NCBI GenBank assembly: GCA_020832495.1
Contig: JAFIEP010000022.1
Location: forward strand, 1-49,510
Length of the DNA: 49,510 nt
Direction of reading: 5' to 3'
Source of the DNA: Acidimicrobiia bacterium
Lineage (GTDB): Bacteria; Actinomycetota; Acidimicrobiia; Acidimicrobiales; Acidimicrobilacustridaceae
The notes beneath the pieces are model-generated. The model did no database searches, was not told the origin of the DNA, and was given only the letters and a program-made list of their open reading frames with translations. Shown here piece by piece: positions 20,333 through 26,182 of the stretch; the first letter of the stretch is position 1, and every line of letters starts with the position of its first letter. The translations under genes and the position numbers were made by a program.

Positions 20333-20773
20333 CTACCCCGACGGCGACCATCTGGTGCCGTTCGAGGCTGTGAGGGAATGGATACCGATGGACTCCCGGT
20401 GGCACACCTCGAGCAGGTGGGGGTCAGAGGTGGCGAGTTGCGACCCGAGGTTCCGAGTGACTTCCGCGGCAATGCAATCAGCCAAGCTGACAGCGCAACG
20501 CGTGCGGTGGTAGTGCCGTGCCCGGAGCAATCCAGCGGCAGCCGCGGTCCTCTCGTCGAGATCCAAGGGGTTGAGCAGGTCGAGCTGCGCGAGGTCGAGC
20601 GCAGCGTCTTCGTCGTCGGCTCCGACGACGCGGATCAGGTGGTCGAGCACTTCGGCTACCCCGATCACCGTGAGGGCTGTTGGCTCCTGGGCTCCGAGCA
20701 GTGAGCCAACTTCAGGTGCCGCGGTCTCGCCCTTGAGGAAGGCGAGCACCGCGTAGGCGTCGAGGACGATCAC
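20333..20773 (-). CDS. PIN-domain toxin (VapC-like), module B
   Basis: A 146-residue PIN protein. The four acidic positions of the RNase site can be placed: Asp5 (VLDAYAVLAFLKGE), a Glu in VAEVLDHL (about residue 41), an Asp in SLADCIAAEVT (about residue 98) and an Asp in LATSDPHLLEV (about residue 116). VapC toxins cut tRNA or rRNA. It overlaps the upstream AbrB-type antitoxin gene by four bases. Its 3' end converges on module A. Complete and probably functional. Confidence 0.85.
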   Translation of the reverse strand: MIVLDAYAVLAFLKGETAAPEVGSLLGAQEPTALTVIGVAEVLDHLIRVVGADDEDAALDLAQLDLLNPLDLDERTAAAAGLLRARHYHRTRCAVSLADCIAAEVTRNLGSQLATSDPHLLEVCHRESIGIHSLTASNGTRWSPSG

Positions 20774-21018
20774 CGATGCTGCTCGCGGGCGGCGTCGGCC
20801 CTGCGGGCTCGTTGACGAACTCGCTCGGTGTCCGGGCCGCGTCCGCGGTACTTGCCTTCGAGCTCGCCGACGGGGTCTTCTGCCAGCGGCCGCATGACGA
20901 CGCGGTCACCGAGGTCGACGACGACGACGCGGCGTGTCTTCCAACGGGCCCGCGTCTCGGCTGGGATGGAGACCTGTCCGTTGCGTGAGATCGTCATCTG
21001 GTGACTAGCTGCTGTCAT
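20770..21018 (-). CDS. AbrB/MazE-type antitoxin (VapB-like), module B
   Basis: An 82-residue protein if started at ATG 21018 (MTAASHQMTISRNGQVSIPA); an ATG at 21036 would add six residues. The swapped-hairpin AbrB domain is seen in MTISRNGQVSIPAETRARW and VVVVDLGDRVVMRPL, followed by a charged tail (about residues 50-82) that would bind the PIN toxin. I prefer 21018 because TACAAT lies exactly six bases upstream, as at other leaderless genes here. Confidence 0.82.
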   Translation of the reverse strand: MTAASHQMTISRNGQVSIPAETRARWKTRRVVVVDLGDRVVMRPLAEDPVGELEGKYRGRGPDTERVRQRARRADAAREQHR

Positions 21019-21024
21019 AGGCGC

Positions 21025-21030
21025 ATTGTA
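21025..21030 (-). promoter_or_regulatory. -10 element for the module B antitoxin-toxin operon
   Basis: TACAAT on the minus strand, six bases before ATG 21018. Two TTGTAT elements on the plus strand (21026 and about 21047) form a direct repeat that could be an autoregulatory site. Confidence 0.55.
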
Positions 21031-21268
21031 TGTCATCTCCTATTTGTTGTATAGGCCGACAACGGGGCGAATCGATGCCAACGAGCGCAACCGGTGATCG
21101 ACTACACGTACACCGACGAACCCGATGGCTCCTTGCCAGGACAGCGAACCTCCGGCCCGACTGCCCCAGAACGCCGGGAGGGGGTGACCCGGTGGCCCTC
21201 TATGAAGGTGGCTGGAGGCACGGAGGGTTGCGCTCATTGCTTGCCCGCGTTTGGAACGGCAGGAAACC

Positions 21269-21532
21269 TCAGGCTGACGCGTCCGCGCGGTACTTGCGTT
21301 GTGCTGCCTGCTTGGAGACGCCGAGCATGGCACCGATCTCAGACCACGACTTGTGGGCGGCGCGGGCGGCTCTGACGGATTCCGCGAGTTCGGCATCCAA
21401 GTGTTCGCGCTGCTGAGCGAGCTCGGCGATCTGGCGGAGCGCGTCGGTGTCGGCCTGGTGGAGGTCCTCAGGGTCCACAGTCTCTGCCCATGCCTCGAGT
21501 GCGGCGGCTCGTTCTGCGCGGCTCTTGCTCAT
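21269..21532 (-). CDS. Small helix-turn-helix protein, antitoxin-like, module C
   Basis: An 87-residue protein from ATG 21532 (ATG 21544 would add four residues). It begins MSKSRAERAAALEAW, has a long charged helix (about residues 20-60) and ends with a helix-turn-helix, SWSEIGAMLGVSKQAAQRKY. It overlaps the stop of the HAMPARP-motif gene by ATGA and is therefore translationally coupled to it. Paralogous in arrangement to the gene at 19966. A repressor/antitoxin role is inferred. Confidence 0.75.
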   Translation of the reverse strand: MSKSRAERAAALEAWAETVDPEDLHQADTDALRQIAELAQQREHLDAELAESVRAARAAHKSWSEIGAMLGVSKQAAQRKYRADASA

Positions 21533-21768
21533 GGCGTCCACCATCCCTTCAGGAACTTGGGTCGTGCCGGCATCGCGTGGATCACGGCCGTCCCCTCTTC
21601 GTCGGTGACCACACCAACCTCGAGAGGCTCCGCCGTTGTCGCTGGACCGATGAACATTGTGACGGGCGGATCGTCGGTCTCGAACGCTCGCCAGTGATTG
21701 CGCAGTTCGTGCAGCATGTTGTCCTCGGTGACACCGTGCTTGCGGGCGCTCGCCTCGACGTCCACCAC
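21529..21768 (-). CDS. HAMPARP-motif toxin-like protein, module C (intact)
   Basis: From GTG 21768 (a second GTG at 21765) the protein is 79 residues; the open frame extends further upstream but the extra residues are unlike the homologue in module A. It holds ARKHGVTEDNMLHELRNHW, then VTMFIGPATTAEPLEVGVV and VIHAMPARPKFLKGW. The helix-then-beta-sheet order and size recall BrnT/RelE-like toxins, but no named family was recognised. A start codon without a clear ribosome site leaves the N-terminus uncertain. Translationally coupled to the helix-turn-helix gene after it. Confidence 0.7.
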   Translation of the reverse strand: MVDVEASARKHGVTEDNMLHELRNHWRAFETDDPPVTMFIGPATTAEPLEVGVVTDEEGTAVIHAMPARPKFLKGWWTP

Positions 21769-21842
21769 CTGTGGAAGGTATCGAGAACACACCCGATCGT
21801 CAACACATGCTGACGCCCGGCGCGAGTGCCCCAAACGCCGGG

Positions 21843-22251
21843 TCAGCGGTCGGGATGAGCCACGTCGACCACGGCAAGGCCATCGATTCCGGAGAAGTCA
21901 TCTGGGTTGCAGGTGTGGATCGGTAGTTCGCTCGCCACACAGACCGCCGCGATCATCGCGTCGTAGGCGCGTGCTGATGACGTCCGGCCTGCTTGTCGGA
22001 GCGACGCCGCCACCTGACCGAAGCTCCGCGCCGCAGCTGCGTCGAAGGGCAGCGGATCGAAGTCGGCTTCGGCCTGTTGGAGGTGTGCTTGACGAGCGGC
22101 TCGTTCCTCGTCGGTCGAGGCGACCAGTGGGCCGACCGACGAGCTCGGCGAGGGTGATCGTCGTGATGAGCGGCTCGGCTGGCAAGGACTCGACGTCGTC
22201 GATCCGACCCAGGAGGATCAGGGTGTTGGTGTCGAGGACCCCTTGCGCCAT
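21843..22251 (-). pseudogene. PIN-domain toxin (VapC-like), module D, frameshifted
   Basis: ATG 22251 opens MAQGVLDTNTLILLGRIDD with the first PIN Asp, and the second acidic residue follows in TLAELV. Near 22136-22146 the frame is lost; the remainder (TDEERAARQAHLQQAE, SARAYDAMIAAVCVASELP and HTCNPDDFSGIDGL) continues in another frame to the stop at 21843. Removing one base at GAGCTCGTCGG restores one protein of about 135 residues. The antitoxin before it is intact, so loss of the toxin is biologically tolerable; a sequencing error is the alternative. Confidence 0.7.
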
Positions 22252-22252
22252 C

Positions 22253-22489
22253 TCAGATCGCCGGGTCGACGACGTCGTCGATGTCGCGTCGAAGGGCTGC
22301 GGGGTCGACACTCGGGAGCTTTGCCCAGCGTCGGCGCAGCTCGGCGAGGGGAGCAGGCGGTCGAGGGAGCGCCATGAGCTGTGCTGCGGGCTTTCCAGAC
22401 CGAGTGATCGTCAGTCGCTCGCCACGCTGGGCTCGCTCCACGACCTCACCCCCGTGGTTCCGGAGATCTCGGATCGAGATGTTCGCCAT
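22253..22489 (-). CDS. Phd/YefM-type antitoxin, module D
   Basis: A 78-residue prevent-host-death family protein: MANISIRDLRNHGGEVVERA with the usual start, then GERLTITRSGKPAAQLM (DNA-binding dimer part, residues 1-40) and a C-terminal toxin-binding tail. It ends one base before the PIN gene start. PIN toxins paired with Phd-type antitoxins are common in actinobacteria. Confidence 0.85.
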   Translation of the reverse strand: MANISIRDLRNHGGEVVERAQRGERLTITRSGKPAAQLMALPRPPAPLAELRRRWAKLPSVDPAALRRDIDDVVDPAI

Positions 22490-23357: not shown

Positions 23358-24080
23358 TCAGGAGGGGTCGCCTTCGTTCCGGTAGGGCTCTTCGAGGGTG
23401 TCGCCCGGCACGACCTCCCAGCGGACCGCCGAGATTCCGGGTTCGAGACTGAGCCGGCTCACCGCCTGTTCGAGACGCTCGTCGGGCCGGCCCTCCACCA
23501 GGATCTCGGCGTTGACCGTCACTCGATCTGCGTCGAGATCGGCGGAGTCGAGTGCCTTCAGCCGGTACCCGGACAGGGACTGCAGCAGCAGTGCCCGCAC
23601 GTGGGCCTCTTGGGCGTGCCGACACACGGCGCGGAAGCGGTAGGTCGTCTCGACCTCGGTGTCGTCGACGGGGAGCCGGTCGATCTTCCGGGCGACCGGG
23701 CGCAGGAACAGGTTGGCCGCCGCCACGATCACCGCGCCCGTGGCGGCAATGAGGTACTCGCCGGCGCCGGCCAGGGTGCCCACGGCGGCGGCACACCACA
23801 ACGTTGCCGCCGTGTTGATGCCACGCACGTTGAGGCCGTCGCGCAGGATCACCCCGGCACCGAGGAAGCCCACGCCGGAGACGACCTGCGCAGCCACGCG
23901 GGTCGGGCTCTGGTCGTCGTCCCAGATGACCGACAACAGGACGAACAGCGTGGCGCCGGTGGCCACCAGCGCATTGGTGCGCAGCCCGGCGCCGCGCTGG
24001 CGCCACTGCCGCTCAAGGCCGATGACCGCGCCGCAGAGCAGACCCGTGCCGACGCGTGCGAGGACCTCCAACTCACCCAT
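23358..24080 (-). CDS. mgtC: MgtC/SapB family membrane protein
   Basis: A 240-residue protein with an N-terminal MgtC domain of four to five membrane segments: LLCGAVIGLERQWRQRGAGLRTNALVA, VVSGVGFLGAGVI and LNVRGINTAATLWCAAAVGTLAGAG are hallmark segments. A C-terminal ACT-like soluble domain follows (about residues 150-240). MgtC proteins help growth in low Mg2+ and, in pathogens, inhibit the ATP synthase. A GGAGGG ribosome site precedes ATG 24080. It lies 117 bp after mgtE in the same direction, so the Mg2+ riboswitch upstream of mgtE probably governs both. Confidence 0.88.
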   Translation of the reverse strand: MGELEVLARVGTGLLCGAVIGLERQWRQRGAGLRTNALVATGATLFVLLSVIWDDDQSPTRVAAQVVSGVGFLGAGVILRDGLNVRGINTAATLWCAAAVGTLAGAGEYLIAATGAVIVAAANLFLRPVARKIDRLPVDDTEVETTYRFRAVCRHAQEAHVRALLLQSLSGYRLKALDSADLDADRVTVNAEILVEGRPDERLEQAVSRLSLEPGISAVRWEVVPGDTLEEPYRNEGDPS

Positions 24081-24197: not shown

Positions 24198-25567
24198 TCA
24201 GGTCAACTGCAGGACCCACGCGGCCATGCCGAAGTAGACGAACAGGCCGGTGAAGTCCTTGATGGTGGTGATGAACGGGTCGGCACCCGGTGCATGGTCG
24301 AGGCCGAGCTTCACCATGGCCCAGGGCATGGCGAACCCCAGGAAGCAGGCCAGGTTCACCGACGTGAACAGGGCCACCCCCACGGCGATGCCGAGCTGGG
24401 GGATGTCGTTCGGCACTCCCTGCCAGAGGTAGGCGATCGTGCCGCCCAGGACGCCGATGAGCGTCCCCATGACCAGCCCGACGCGCGCCTCACGCTTGAG
24501 GTGCATGCCGATGCGGTTGATGTCGATGTGGCCGAGGGCCAGGCCGCGGGCGAAGATCGTCGTGGACTGCGTCCCGACGTTGCCGCCCATGTCCATGACC
24601 AGTGGCACGAAGATGGCCAGCGCCACCACGGCGGCCGGGTGTCCTCGAAGCTCTCGATGAGCCCGCCGACGGCCAAGCCGCCGGCCAGGGTGACGAGGAG
24701 GAAGGACAGCCGGACGCGCACTGGGTAGCGGATCGACCCGGAGGTGAGGCGCTCGCTGCGAATGACCTCCAGCGAGTGACCCGGATCGGCGATGCCCGCC
24801 TTGCCGAACATGGTGGCGGTGGTGTCGCTGTCGAGCGCGTCCATGGCGTCGTCGACAGTGACGGCGCCGATCAGCCGCCGCTCGGAGTCCACCACCGGCA
24901 GCGACTCGAGGTCACGTCGCTGTAGCCGGCGGGCCGCATCGGCAGCGCTGTCGGTGGCCTGGACGTACTCGTTCGTGGCCTCTGCCAAGAGAGCGACGTT
25001 CGCGTGCTCGTCGGCGCGCAGCAGGTCGGCCAGGCGGACCAGACCTTCGTAGCGGCGGCCCTCGTCGACCACGAAAACCGTCGAGAGATGCTCCGAACGA
25101 GCATCCGACCGGCGCACGGCGTCGAGGGCCTCACCGGCGTTCGCCGACCGTCGCACGGCGACGTAGGTGGGCGACAACATCCGGCCCACGGTGCCCGGGG
25201 CGTAGTTGAGCATGGTGCCGACCGACGACTGGGTGGCCGGATCGAGTTGGGTGACCAGTCGCTTGGCCACCTTGGCCGGCAACTCGTCGAGCAGGTGCAC
25301 CCGATCGTCGGCATCGAGTCGTTCGACGATGTCGATGGATTCGCTGGTGCCGAGTGCCTCGACCAGCGCACCCTGCTCGTCGCGGTCCAGCAGTTCGAAC
25401 ACGTACAGGGCGGTGGTCTTGTCGAGCAGCCGGAAGACGATGGCCTGGACCGGAGCTGCGAGGTAGGGGAGCTGCTCGGCGAGCTGCTCGGGGGAGCTGG
25501 CGGTGACCTCGTGCTTGATGTCGGCGAGGTCGTTGTCGCGCAGGCGGGTGCTGATGTCAGTGAGCAT
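24198..25567 (-). pseudogene. mgtE: MgtE-type magnesium channel/transporter, frameshifted
   Basis: ATG 25567 opens an MgtE protein: N domain (superhelical repeats, residues 1-130), two CBS domains (about residues 130-255, including LSTVFVVDEGRRYEGLV and LESLPVVDSERRLIGAVTVDDAMD) and the first membrane helix ending GGLIESFEDT. The frame is then lost near 24634-24641. The membrane domain continues in another frame (VVALAIFVPLVMDMGGNVGTQ ... VLQLT) to the stop at 24198. One inserted base restores about 455 residues, the usual MgtE length. As written the channel is broken; an assembly error in the CCCGG stretch is equally possible. Confidence 0.85.
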
Positions 25568-25570
25568 GAT

Positions 25571-25600
25571 GGGGAGGAGCCTCCTCGTGAGGGCCTCCCC
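25571..25600 (-). promoter_or_regulatory. Hairpin sequestering the mgtE ribosome-binding site
   Basis: On the minus strand GGGGAGG (25600-25594) can pair with CCTCCCC (25577-25571), placing the mgtE Shine-Dalgarno GAGGAGG (25586-25580) in the loop or in an inner GAGG/CCTC stem. The 5' arm begins five bases after the leader-peptide stop codon, so ribosomes on the leader would control folding. Confidence 0.5.
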
Positions 25601-25604
25601 GAGC

Positions 25605-25748
25605 TCATGGGGACATGAGGCGCGCCGGCAAGAGGGCGCGACACCACGGCCATGCGGGGAGGCGATGAAGAATGAACGGTTCGTGTCGTCGGGGACGGGG
25701 CCCGCTGGTCGTGGCCCCGGTGGGACTCGGGGGTTGGTCGTCGTTCAT
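25605..25748 (-). CDS. Acidic/proline-rich leader peptide upstream of mgtE
   Basis: A 47-residue frame from ATG 25748 with a near-perfect ribosome site (AAGGAGGTGAGGCAG directly before it), ending 37 bases before mgtE. It begins MNDDQPPSP, an acidic stretch followed by prolines. In E. coli the MgtL leader (MEPDPTPLP) uses the same kind of sequence to destabilise ribosomes at low Mg2+ and switch on mgtA. The likeness of sequence and gene context is clear; that this peptide works the same way is inference. It lies between the riboswitch terminator and the mgtE start. Confidence 0.6.
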   Translation of the reverse strand: MNDDQPPSPTGATTSGPRPRRHEPFILHRLPAWPWCRALLPARLMSP

Positions 25749-25812
25749 CTGCCTCACCTCCTTCATGGCGGCACTGTGGCGGCACTGTGGTGTCAGGGTC
25801 GTCGGCACGCGG

Positions 25813-25843
25813 AAAACCCCTTGCGCAGGTGACGCGCAAGGGG
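25813..25843 (-). terminator. Intrinsic terminator of the Mg2+ riboswitch
   Basis: Minus-strand CCCCTTGCGC - GTCACCT - GCGCAAGGGG followed by TTTT: a perfect 10-bp stem with a 7-base loop. It follows the M-box aptamer and precedes the leader peptide, as expected for Mg2+-dependent termination. Confidence 0.85.
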
Positions 25844-25854
25844 CCGATCTGGGG

Positions 25855-26035
25855 GAGCGGCGCCGCTCACGGTCCCCTACGTCGAGCTTCGGCACTGGGG
25901 CATCTATGCCGCCGGAGCGGCCCGCTCACATTGGATCAAGCCTTGGTTCGGCCAGAACTGTTGACCCGTTGGCGTCTCTCGACGTTTCTGGGCAGTGAGC
26001 CTGTCGATGGTCCCAGGAGCCTCACCTAACGGGTC
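25855..26035 (-). ncRNA. M-box (ykoK) magnesium riboswitch
   Basis: The minus strand from about 26035 carries the diagnostic M-box segments in order: GTTAGGTGAGGCTCCT (26030-26015), CTGCCCAGAAACGTCGAGAG with ACGCCAACGGGTCAACAG next, and later CAGTGCCGAAGCTC. These match the conserved core of the RF00380 aptamer. It binds Mg2+ and, with the terminator downstream, shuts off mgtE and probably mgtC when Mg2+ is sufficient. Outer boundaries are approximate. Confidence 0.9.
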
Positions 26036-26182
26036 CCGGTATCGATGACCGGAGCAGTATGCCGCCGGTTTGGGCGCATGGCAACCACTTCGTCGGATCC
26101 GCCGGCGTACGACAACCTCGTGCGGCAATCCGTGGGGCAAGGTCGTGCCGCAATCGGTTCGCGCCTGCGACGGTCCTCGCCG

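Follow-up and report, generated by a model that had tools for sequence, protein, structure and literature searches.

The window, by which we mean the whole 49,510-nucleotide stretch of DNA that was analysed, carries on its minus strand an mgtE Mg2+ transporter gene with a leader in front of it and an mgtC-family gene behind it. The features of this region are as follows.

26056..26084, minus strand: promoter-like site (TTGCCA, 17 nt, CATACT) directly 5' of the M-box, from a consensus scan (9/12; shuffles, mean 0.0), which is no proof of function
25867..26040, minus strand: M-box Mg2+ riboswitch aptamer (RF00380), scoring 103.7 bits where the gathering score is 44
25813..25843, minus strand: intrinsic terminator with a 10-bp stem, a 7-nt loop and TTTT, from sequence and fold
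25753..25763, minus strand: extended Shine-Dalgarno (SD) sequence of the leader uORF, AAGGAGGTGAG, with 10 of 10 matches to AAGGAGGTGA
25605..25748, minus strand: leader uORF of 47 codons with an ATG start, MNDDQPPSPTGATTSG..., matched by similar uORFs in 14 further mgtE leaders of the comparable set
25715..25732, minus strand: small hairpin within the uORF (CCCCG/CGGGG), at about codons 6-11, from a stem count in which the controls are also in excess
25571..25600, minus strand: hairpin around the mgtE SD (AGGAGG at 25585-25580), weak
24198..25567, minus strand: mgtE Mg2+ transporter gene, divided in two by a frame difference near 24636
23358..24080, minus strand: mgtC-family gene (PF02308), 3' of mgtE

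The original prediction placed an M-box in front of mgtE, and a covariance search agrees, matching RF00380 over its full length (model 1-169, E 4.2e-22, 26040-25867 on the minus strand). The 10-bp terminator with a T tract that was said to follow it is likewise present: its GC-rich stem, CCCCTTGCGC/GCGCAAGGGG (25843-25817), leads into TTTT at 25816-25813, and the fold of −23.6 kcal/mol (z −3.62) is equalled by 1 of 200 shuffles. A strict scan for terminators, which requires 5 or more T in 8, reports none in the window leader because the T tract is just four long. The coordinates of the predicted 47-codon frame also hold, with the ATG at 25748, the stop at 25605 and 37 nt between the stop and the mgtE ATG at 25567. 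Its ribosome site, which had been described as ideal, was scored against the SD consensus AAGGAGGTGA, and the perfect match is equalled by 0 of 100 shuffles. The peptide begins MNDDQPPSPTGATTSGPRPRRHEPF..., so that within MNDDQPPSP there are acidic residues at Asp3 and Asp4 and prolines at Pro6, Pro7 and Pro9; a Pfam search with the 47-residue peptide gave no match.

In this assembly mgtE is divided between two frames, with PF03448 and PF00571 (MgtE_N and CBS) found in 25567-24356 and PF01769 (MgtE) in 24629-24198. The mgtE of a related contig, L022, is a single frame of 453 residues, and when the two genes are compared at the DNA level (73% identity) a one-base gap falls at the frame difference (24620-24660), which represents either an assembly error or a broken gene. 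A second MgtE-like match, with 35% identity, lies elsewhere in the same genome. By eye, an ORF resembling the mgtC-family gene also lies 3' of mgtE in L023, and beyond mgtC in the window (20770-22489) there are small ORFs resembling antitoxin-toxin pairs, with prevent-host-death-like and PIN-like frames.

Relatives were collected by their RF00380 matches. M-boxes are sparse close to the window, occurring in 2 of 61 relatives and in 19 of 397 genomes sampled from its order; the corresponding counts are 34/396 in a sample of the phylum, 38/150 in the Nocardiopsis family, 3/40 in the genus of that family (2 above the cut-off), 9/35 in family f75, 5/21 in family f104 and 14/66 in the class of f75 and f104, the loci of those two families included. 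A scan of the contigs of one genome added 3 loci, and a plasmid search with the leader returned one partial match, from Enterococcus, covering 20% of the query. Within the order sample, mgtE of this type stands behind an M-box in the window and in L001 (genome G049; contig L022), whose MgtE is 67% identical to that of the window. At the other 17 loci, one Nramp-like protein family lies behind the M-box in at least 14, as judged by eye. Nramp-related genes behind M-boxes are known, chiefly from Clostridia and Deltaproteobacteria according to the excerpted text of PMC4072509. As a separate observation, 16 of these 17 loci (L005-L016 and L018-L021, not L017) have an MgtE_N/CBS-like stretch upstream of the M-box, which is thus placed between two genes.

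Does the leader uORF recur in front of other mgtE genes? To count as comparable, a leader had to precede an MgtE sharing 36% identity or more with the MgtE of the window, L022 or L023. Seventeen leaders qualify: the window, L001, L023 (Nocardiopsis metallicus), L107, L092 and 12 of f75 and f104, with two f75 loci that run off their contigs (L115 and L116) left out. The conservation check proposed with the original prediction came out in its favour, as 15 of the 17 leaders have a uORF in this position with a strong SD and an acidic/Pro start: an SD similar to AAGGAGGTGAG is followed a few bases on by a start codon, and Asp or Glu occurs at residues 2-6 in all 15 uORFs, the identical 15 that an automatic choice selects. 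By eye, L051 and L118 have no such uORF, the automatic rule offering a weak one in L051. Fourteen of the 17 leaders match the SD consensus at 9 or 10 of its 10 positions, L110 at 8, and L051 and L118 at 7, and a terminator-like hairpin precedes the uORF position in 14 of the 17 under a loose rule without shuffle control. The 15 uORFs vary in length from 18 to 57 codons, and the gap from their stop to the next start ranges from −4 to 95 nt, being 31-95 nt in 14 of them; the exception is L050, where the uORF stop and the assumed mgtE start, an ATG in frame with mgtE, overlap, and in L121 the gap runs to a short ORF lying between uORF and mgtE. The peptides begin, for example, MNDDQPPSPTG (window), LHADQPPPARG (L001, CTG start), MPGREPDSTSGDSEPGH (L023), MPDRPSTPVDDEPGH (L092), VPEDGERPSRQR (L050), LDPSPTHPARRRVAVVVP (L052, CTG start) and VDPVPQPKAG (L119); further M-box uORF starts are MPDRPSTPVDDEP and LSADRGSPH. 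Between the window and L001, 31 codons give pS 0.38 and pN 0.39, that is, no protein-level constraint, and the DQPP that they share is encoded by identical DNA, so that conservation of RNA and of peptide are indistinguishable there. At a further 17 loci the M-box is followed by a more distantly related MgtE-like match (25-34% identity); just three of these loci (L068, L082 and L084) have a uORF on the by-eye list, and 0 of the 3 carry Asp or Glu at residues 2-6.

Similar uORFs follow M-boxes in front of other genes. Those of f89, which are likely mycobacteria, begin MSPGDSPYP... and MSSSDSPGRS..., and those of the Nocardiopsis family MDSDSPGRS... with relatives of it. In f83 the uORFs begin MDSEPG (L026) and MESDPG (L031 and L037), so that residues 2 and 4 swap Asp and Glu and remain acidic. 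We note that GTR or GMR stands immediately before the stop in many Nocardiopsis-family uORFs (L054-L058, L061, L062, L075, L077, L078, L081, L083, L085-L087, L089 and L091). The weakest group is that of the Nramp-type loci of the window's order, in which all 15 candidate uORFs chosen by eye are CTG-started (L005-L007, L009, L010 and L012-L021). They share L-x-[AT]-[DE] in 15 of 15, with synonymous changes and a constant position; their SDs reach at best 8 of 10 matches and are mostly no better than shuffles, and the automatic rule selects 1 of the 15. Among 22 CTG frames, three (L007, L017 and L096) have no in-frame ATG, GTG or TTG upstream before a stop is reached; several others have an in-frame upstream start, often a GTG within the SD.

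The counts that follow depend on how the uORFs were chosen. Seventy-nine were picked by eye on SD position and distance, and the three of f83 were added later, with their N-termini already seen, for a total of 82; L031 and L037 were also selected automatically, and L026, whose SD is poor, was not. Eleven loci that were cut, duplicate, too short or below the cut-off (L046, L059, L070, L094, L103, L104, L108, L109, L115, L116 and L117) were left out of the SD-match, uORF-listing and automatic-choice analyses, the SD-match analysis also excluding loci with fewer than 200 bases left, and L003, L004, L022 and L024 lie outside the uORF set. The automatic choice, applied to 104 loci, found a uORF in 80, with 14 loci having neither an automatic nor a by-eye uORF. 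The two choices agree at 62 of 69 shared loci, and by group at 15/15 mgtE leaders, 12/13 f89, 34/36 Nocardiopsis family, 2/3 f83 and 1/15 Nramp-type; ten by-eye uORFs missed by the automatic rule are all CTG-started and from the window's order.

Asp or Glu occurs at residues 2-6 in 75 of 82 uORFs, and together with Pro at 2-10 in 60; by group, the acidic residue is found in 15/15 mgtE leaders, 15/15 Nramp-type, 13/13 f89, 29/36 Nocardiopsis-family and 3/3 f83 uORFs, the seven Nocardiopsis-family uORFs that have none including L068, L082 and L084. Of 37 dissimilar representatives, 33 have the acidic residue and 26 have Pro as well, whereas the figures for 285 background N-termini are 119 and 49 (Fisher p 1.9e-8 for the acidic residue and 8.8e-11 for acidic residue plus Pro), the background being the ATG ORFs of at least 150 residues in the same loci, a mechanical set of which some are spurious. 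Other reading frames of the first 79 uORFs have Asp or Glu at 2-6 in 17/79 and 5/79. Similarly, the automatic choice gives 63 of 80 with Asp or Glu and 50 with Pro as well, rising to 44/51 and 36/51 where the SD match is at least 7, compared with 23/51 and 10/51 when strong-SD starts are taken from the opposite strand. Of the 37 representatives, 18 have at least two acidic residues at positions 2-10, which leaves about half of them without a classical destabilising run.

Constraint falls mainly on the first residues. For codons 2-9 the four groups tested give pN/pS ratios of 0.48, 0.69, 0.79 and 0.78, lower than the 0.83-1.26 of other frames; codons 10-17, aligned from the start, show no constraint (0.92-1.11). 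Column shuffles reached a ratio as low in 8/600, 111/600, 9/200 and 3/600 cases, the 111/600 obtained with the Nramp-type loci of the window's order not being significant. Purifying selection across whole uORFs was rejected: the window/L001 pair is neutral, and 26 sister pairs have a ratio of 0.75 (pS 0.21, pN 0.16). The hairpin within the uORF is kept as an observation only: stems of at least 5 occur within 38 of 81 uORFs compared with 12.1 ± 2.7 in shuffles (0 of 300 with as many), but control stretches are also stem-rich (40/82 vs 19.0 at −45, 24/82 vs 16.8 at +48 and 23/82 vs 15.9 at +84), one group drives the count, and the corresponding z test is weak (mean z 0.61 vs 0.47 at −60).

On the established ground of aptamer, terminator, SD and uORF, and of a uORF with an acidic/Pro start that recurs in comparable leaders, we propose that the leader combines an M-box OFF-switch with a uORF whose N-terminus gives a second Mg2+ reading on the same mRNA, a proposal to which we assign a probability of roughly 0.45. 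The M-box, acting through the intrinsic terminator, would control transcription of mgtE, and transcripts that pass the terminator would carry the strongly initiated uORF. We infer that this uORF is translated in the organism of the window and that its start, acidic and then proline-containing, may destabilise elongating ribosomes at low Mg2+ as those of MgtL and MgtQ do. Early ribosome drop-off would then raise mgtE expression, possibly by freeing the mgtE SD or by reducing Rho termination. The combination of strong initiation, N-terminal constraint and a site between an Mg2+ riboswitch and a transporter gene suits a ribosome destabiliser more closely than it does a small protein or spurious frame.

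How might drop-off be relayed to mgtE? The original prediction envisaged the two sensors acting in series through a hairpin that masks the mgtE SD. That hairpin is present (25600-25571, −20.4 kcal/mol), and its computed stability appears no greater than its composition predicts (z −1.12; 28 of 200 shuffles equally good). The serial coupling has fared less well, given the range of gaps from uORF stop to next start and a predicted accessibility of the window mgtE SD that does not rise, being 0.50 without a ribosome, 0.50 with one early in the uORF, 0.50 with one midway and 0.41 with one at the stop. When 14 leaders (L050 left out) were folded with a ribosome at the stop, SD accessibility went up in L111, L112 and L120, clearly down in L110 and changed little in the others. 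As a general third layer the hairpin was therefore rejected, gap lengths being variable and ribosome-position folding having no consistent effect.

A serious competitor, which we hold to be possible though not the likelier account, is that the uORF serves as a coupling or Rho-shielding element: its translation would open the mgtE start or exclude Rho, and the acidic start would merely tune the speed of the ribosome. This is close to what has been proposed for the mycobacterial pe20 leader, and the excerpted text of PMC12810186 describes the M. tuberculosis M-box uORF2 under a translational platform with Rho termination. In its favour are the overlap of uORF stop and mgtE-frame ATG in L050 and the scarcity, in the other groups, of terminator-like hairpins ahead of the uORF (2/15, 5/13 and 7/36, by the loose rule). 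However, in 14 of 15 leaders the gap, at 31-95 nt, is unsuited to simple coupling, and such an element leaves the recurring acidity at residues 2-6 (75 of 82) unexplained.

That the uORF instead encodes a small protein acting in trans, for example on the transporter, we regard as improbable. Such a role has been suggested for Rv1805A, which has an M-box-free homologue, Rv0115A (excerpts of PMC12810186), the uORF of M. abscessus mgtE has been called a VcgB homologue (excerpts of PMC4974804), and the common GTR or GMR ends of the Nocardiopsis-family uORFs would suit a protein; yet codons 10-17 are unconstrained, the 47 residues encoded in the window lack a Pfam match and uORF lengths in the mgtE leaders vary from 18 to 57 codons. 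Still more remote is the reading that mgtE has an ordinary transcriptional M-box and that the frame downstream of it arose by chance, for which the near-equal pN and pS of window and L001 speak, but against which stand the recurrence of SD, start position and acidic start in 15 of 17 leaders and in further groups, and the mycobacterial uORFs of this kind described as ribosome-bound or translated in the excerpted texts of PMC12810186 and PMC4974804.

Returning to the destabilising uORF, it may be asked whether actinobacterial M-box leaders are broadly dual Mg2+ sensors, with an aptamer acting on transcription or initiation and an old, fast-diverging acidic/Pro peptide, often CTG- or GTG-started, that reads Mg2+ a second time; mycobacterial uORF2 would then be one branch of this arrangement rather than a small protein confined to one genus. 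We consider this generalisation rather unlikely, and less likely than we had previously judged it, since the automatic rule recovers the CTG-started uORFs of the window's order at 1 of 15 loci. CTG starts, if real, would represent non-canonical initiation of a kind unusual among bacteria. The counterparts found here suggest an RNA-based and a ribosome-based Mg2+ sensor stacked on one mRNA. Among the matches listed in a search of one literature collection, we recognised none that links M-box uORFs with ribosome destabilisation or reports them outside mycobacteria, and the term 'ribosome destabilization' is absent from PMC12810186.

MgtL was the precedent named in the original prediction, but it is not the only one; as far as the excerpts of the papers cited go, the mycobacterial M-box uORFs (PMC12810186, PMC4974804) and Salmonella MgtQ (PMC8092293) are nearer. 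The B. subtilis ykoK M-box resembles the window in aptamer family, intrinsic terminator and mgtE-type gene, and differs in that no leader peptide is described in the excerpted text (PMC12810186). E. coli MgtL is a short leader with an acidic/Pro stretch (EPDP) at its very start, in front of an Mg2+ transporter gene, which causes ribosome drop-off at low Mg2+; in contrast to the window, it works with a Rho-dependent terminator, and no M-box is named in that excerpt (PMC11282234). Salmonella MgtQ has a strong SD, AGGAGG, two acidic residues, Asp2 and Glu5, that are needed for MgtB (mgtB release), and an RBS-occluding stem-loop before an Mg2+ transporter gene. It is, however, intergenic and 8 codons long, with alternative stem-loops that have been tested (excerpts of PMC8092293), whereas the window has no predicted ribosome-dependent switch.

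Finally, the M. abscessus mgtE leader (MAB_2717c) brings M-box, uORF and mgtE together as the window does, and its uORF is ribosome-protected in ribosome profiling; the excerpted text names it a VcgB homologue and states no acidic/Pro or Mg2+-sensing role (PMC4974804). The mycobacterial uORF2/Rv1805A family is similar in being a short, strong-SD ORF after an M-box with its N-terminus most conserved, and a conserved Pro7 is stressed in the excerpts of PMC12810186; the window peptide too has Pro at 7. The window has Asp3, Asp4 and Pro7 but not the Asp5 of the f89 peptides, which are few residues on which to base homology. Unlike the mycobacterial uORF2, described as a translational platform with Rho and no intrinsic terminator (PMC12810186, in excerpt), the window uORF belongs to another lineage and stands behind an intrinsic terminator. 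In M. tuberculosis pe20/rv1535 the M-box uORF is translated, and its peptide is called mycobacteria-specific and of unclear role in the same excerpts (PMC12810186); acidic/Pro counterparts in actinobacteria other than mycobacteria would give that question a concrete and testable answer.
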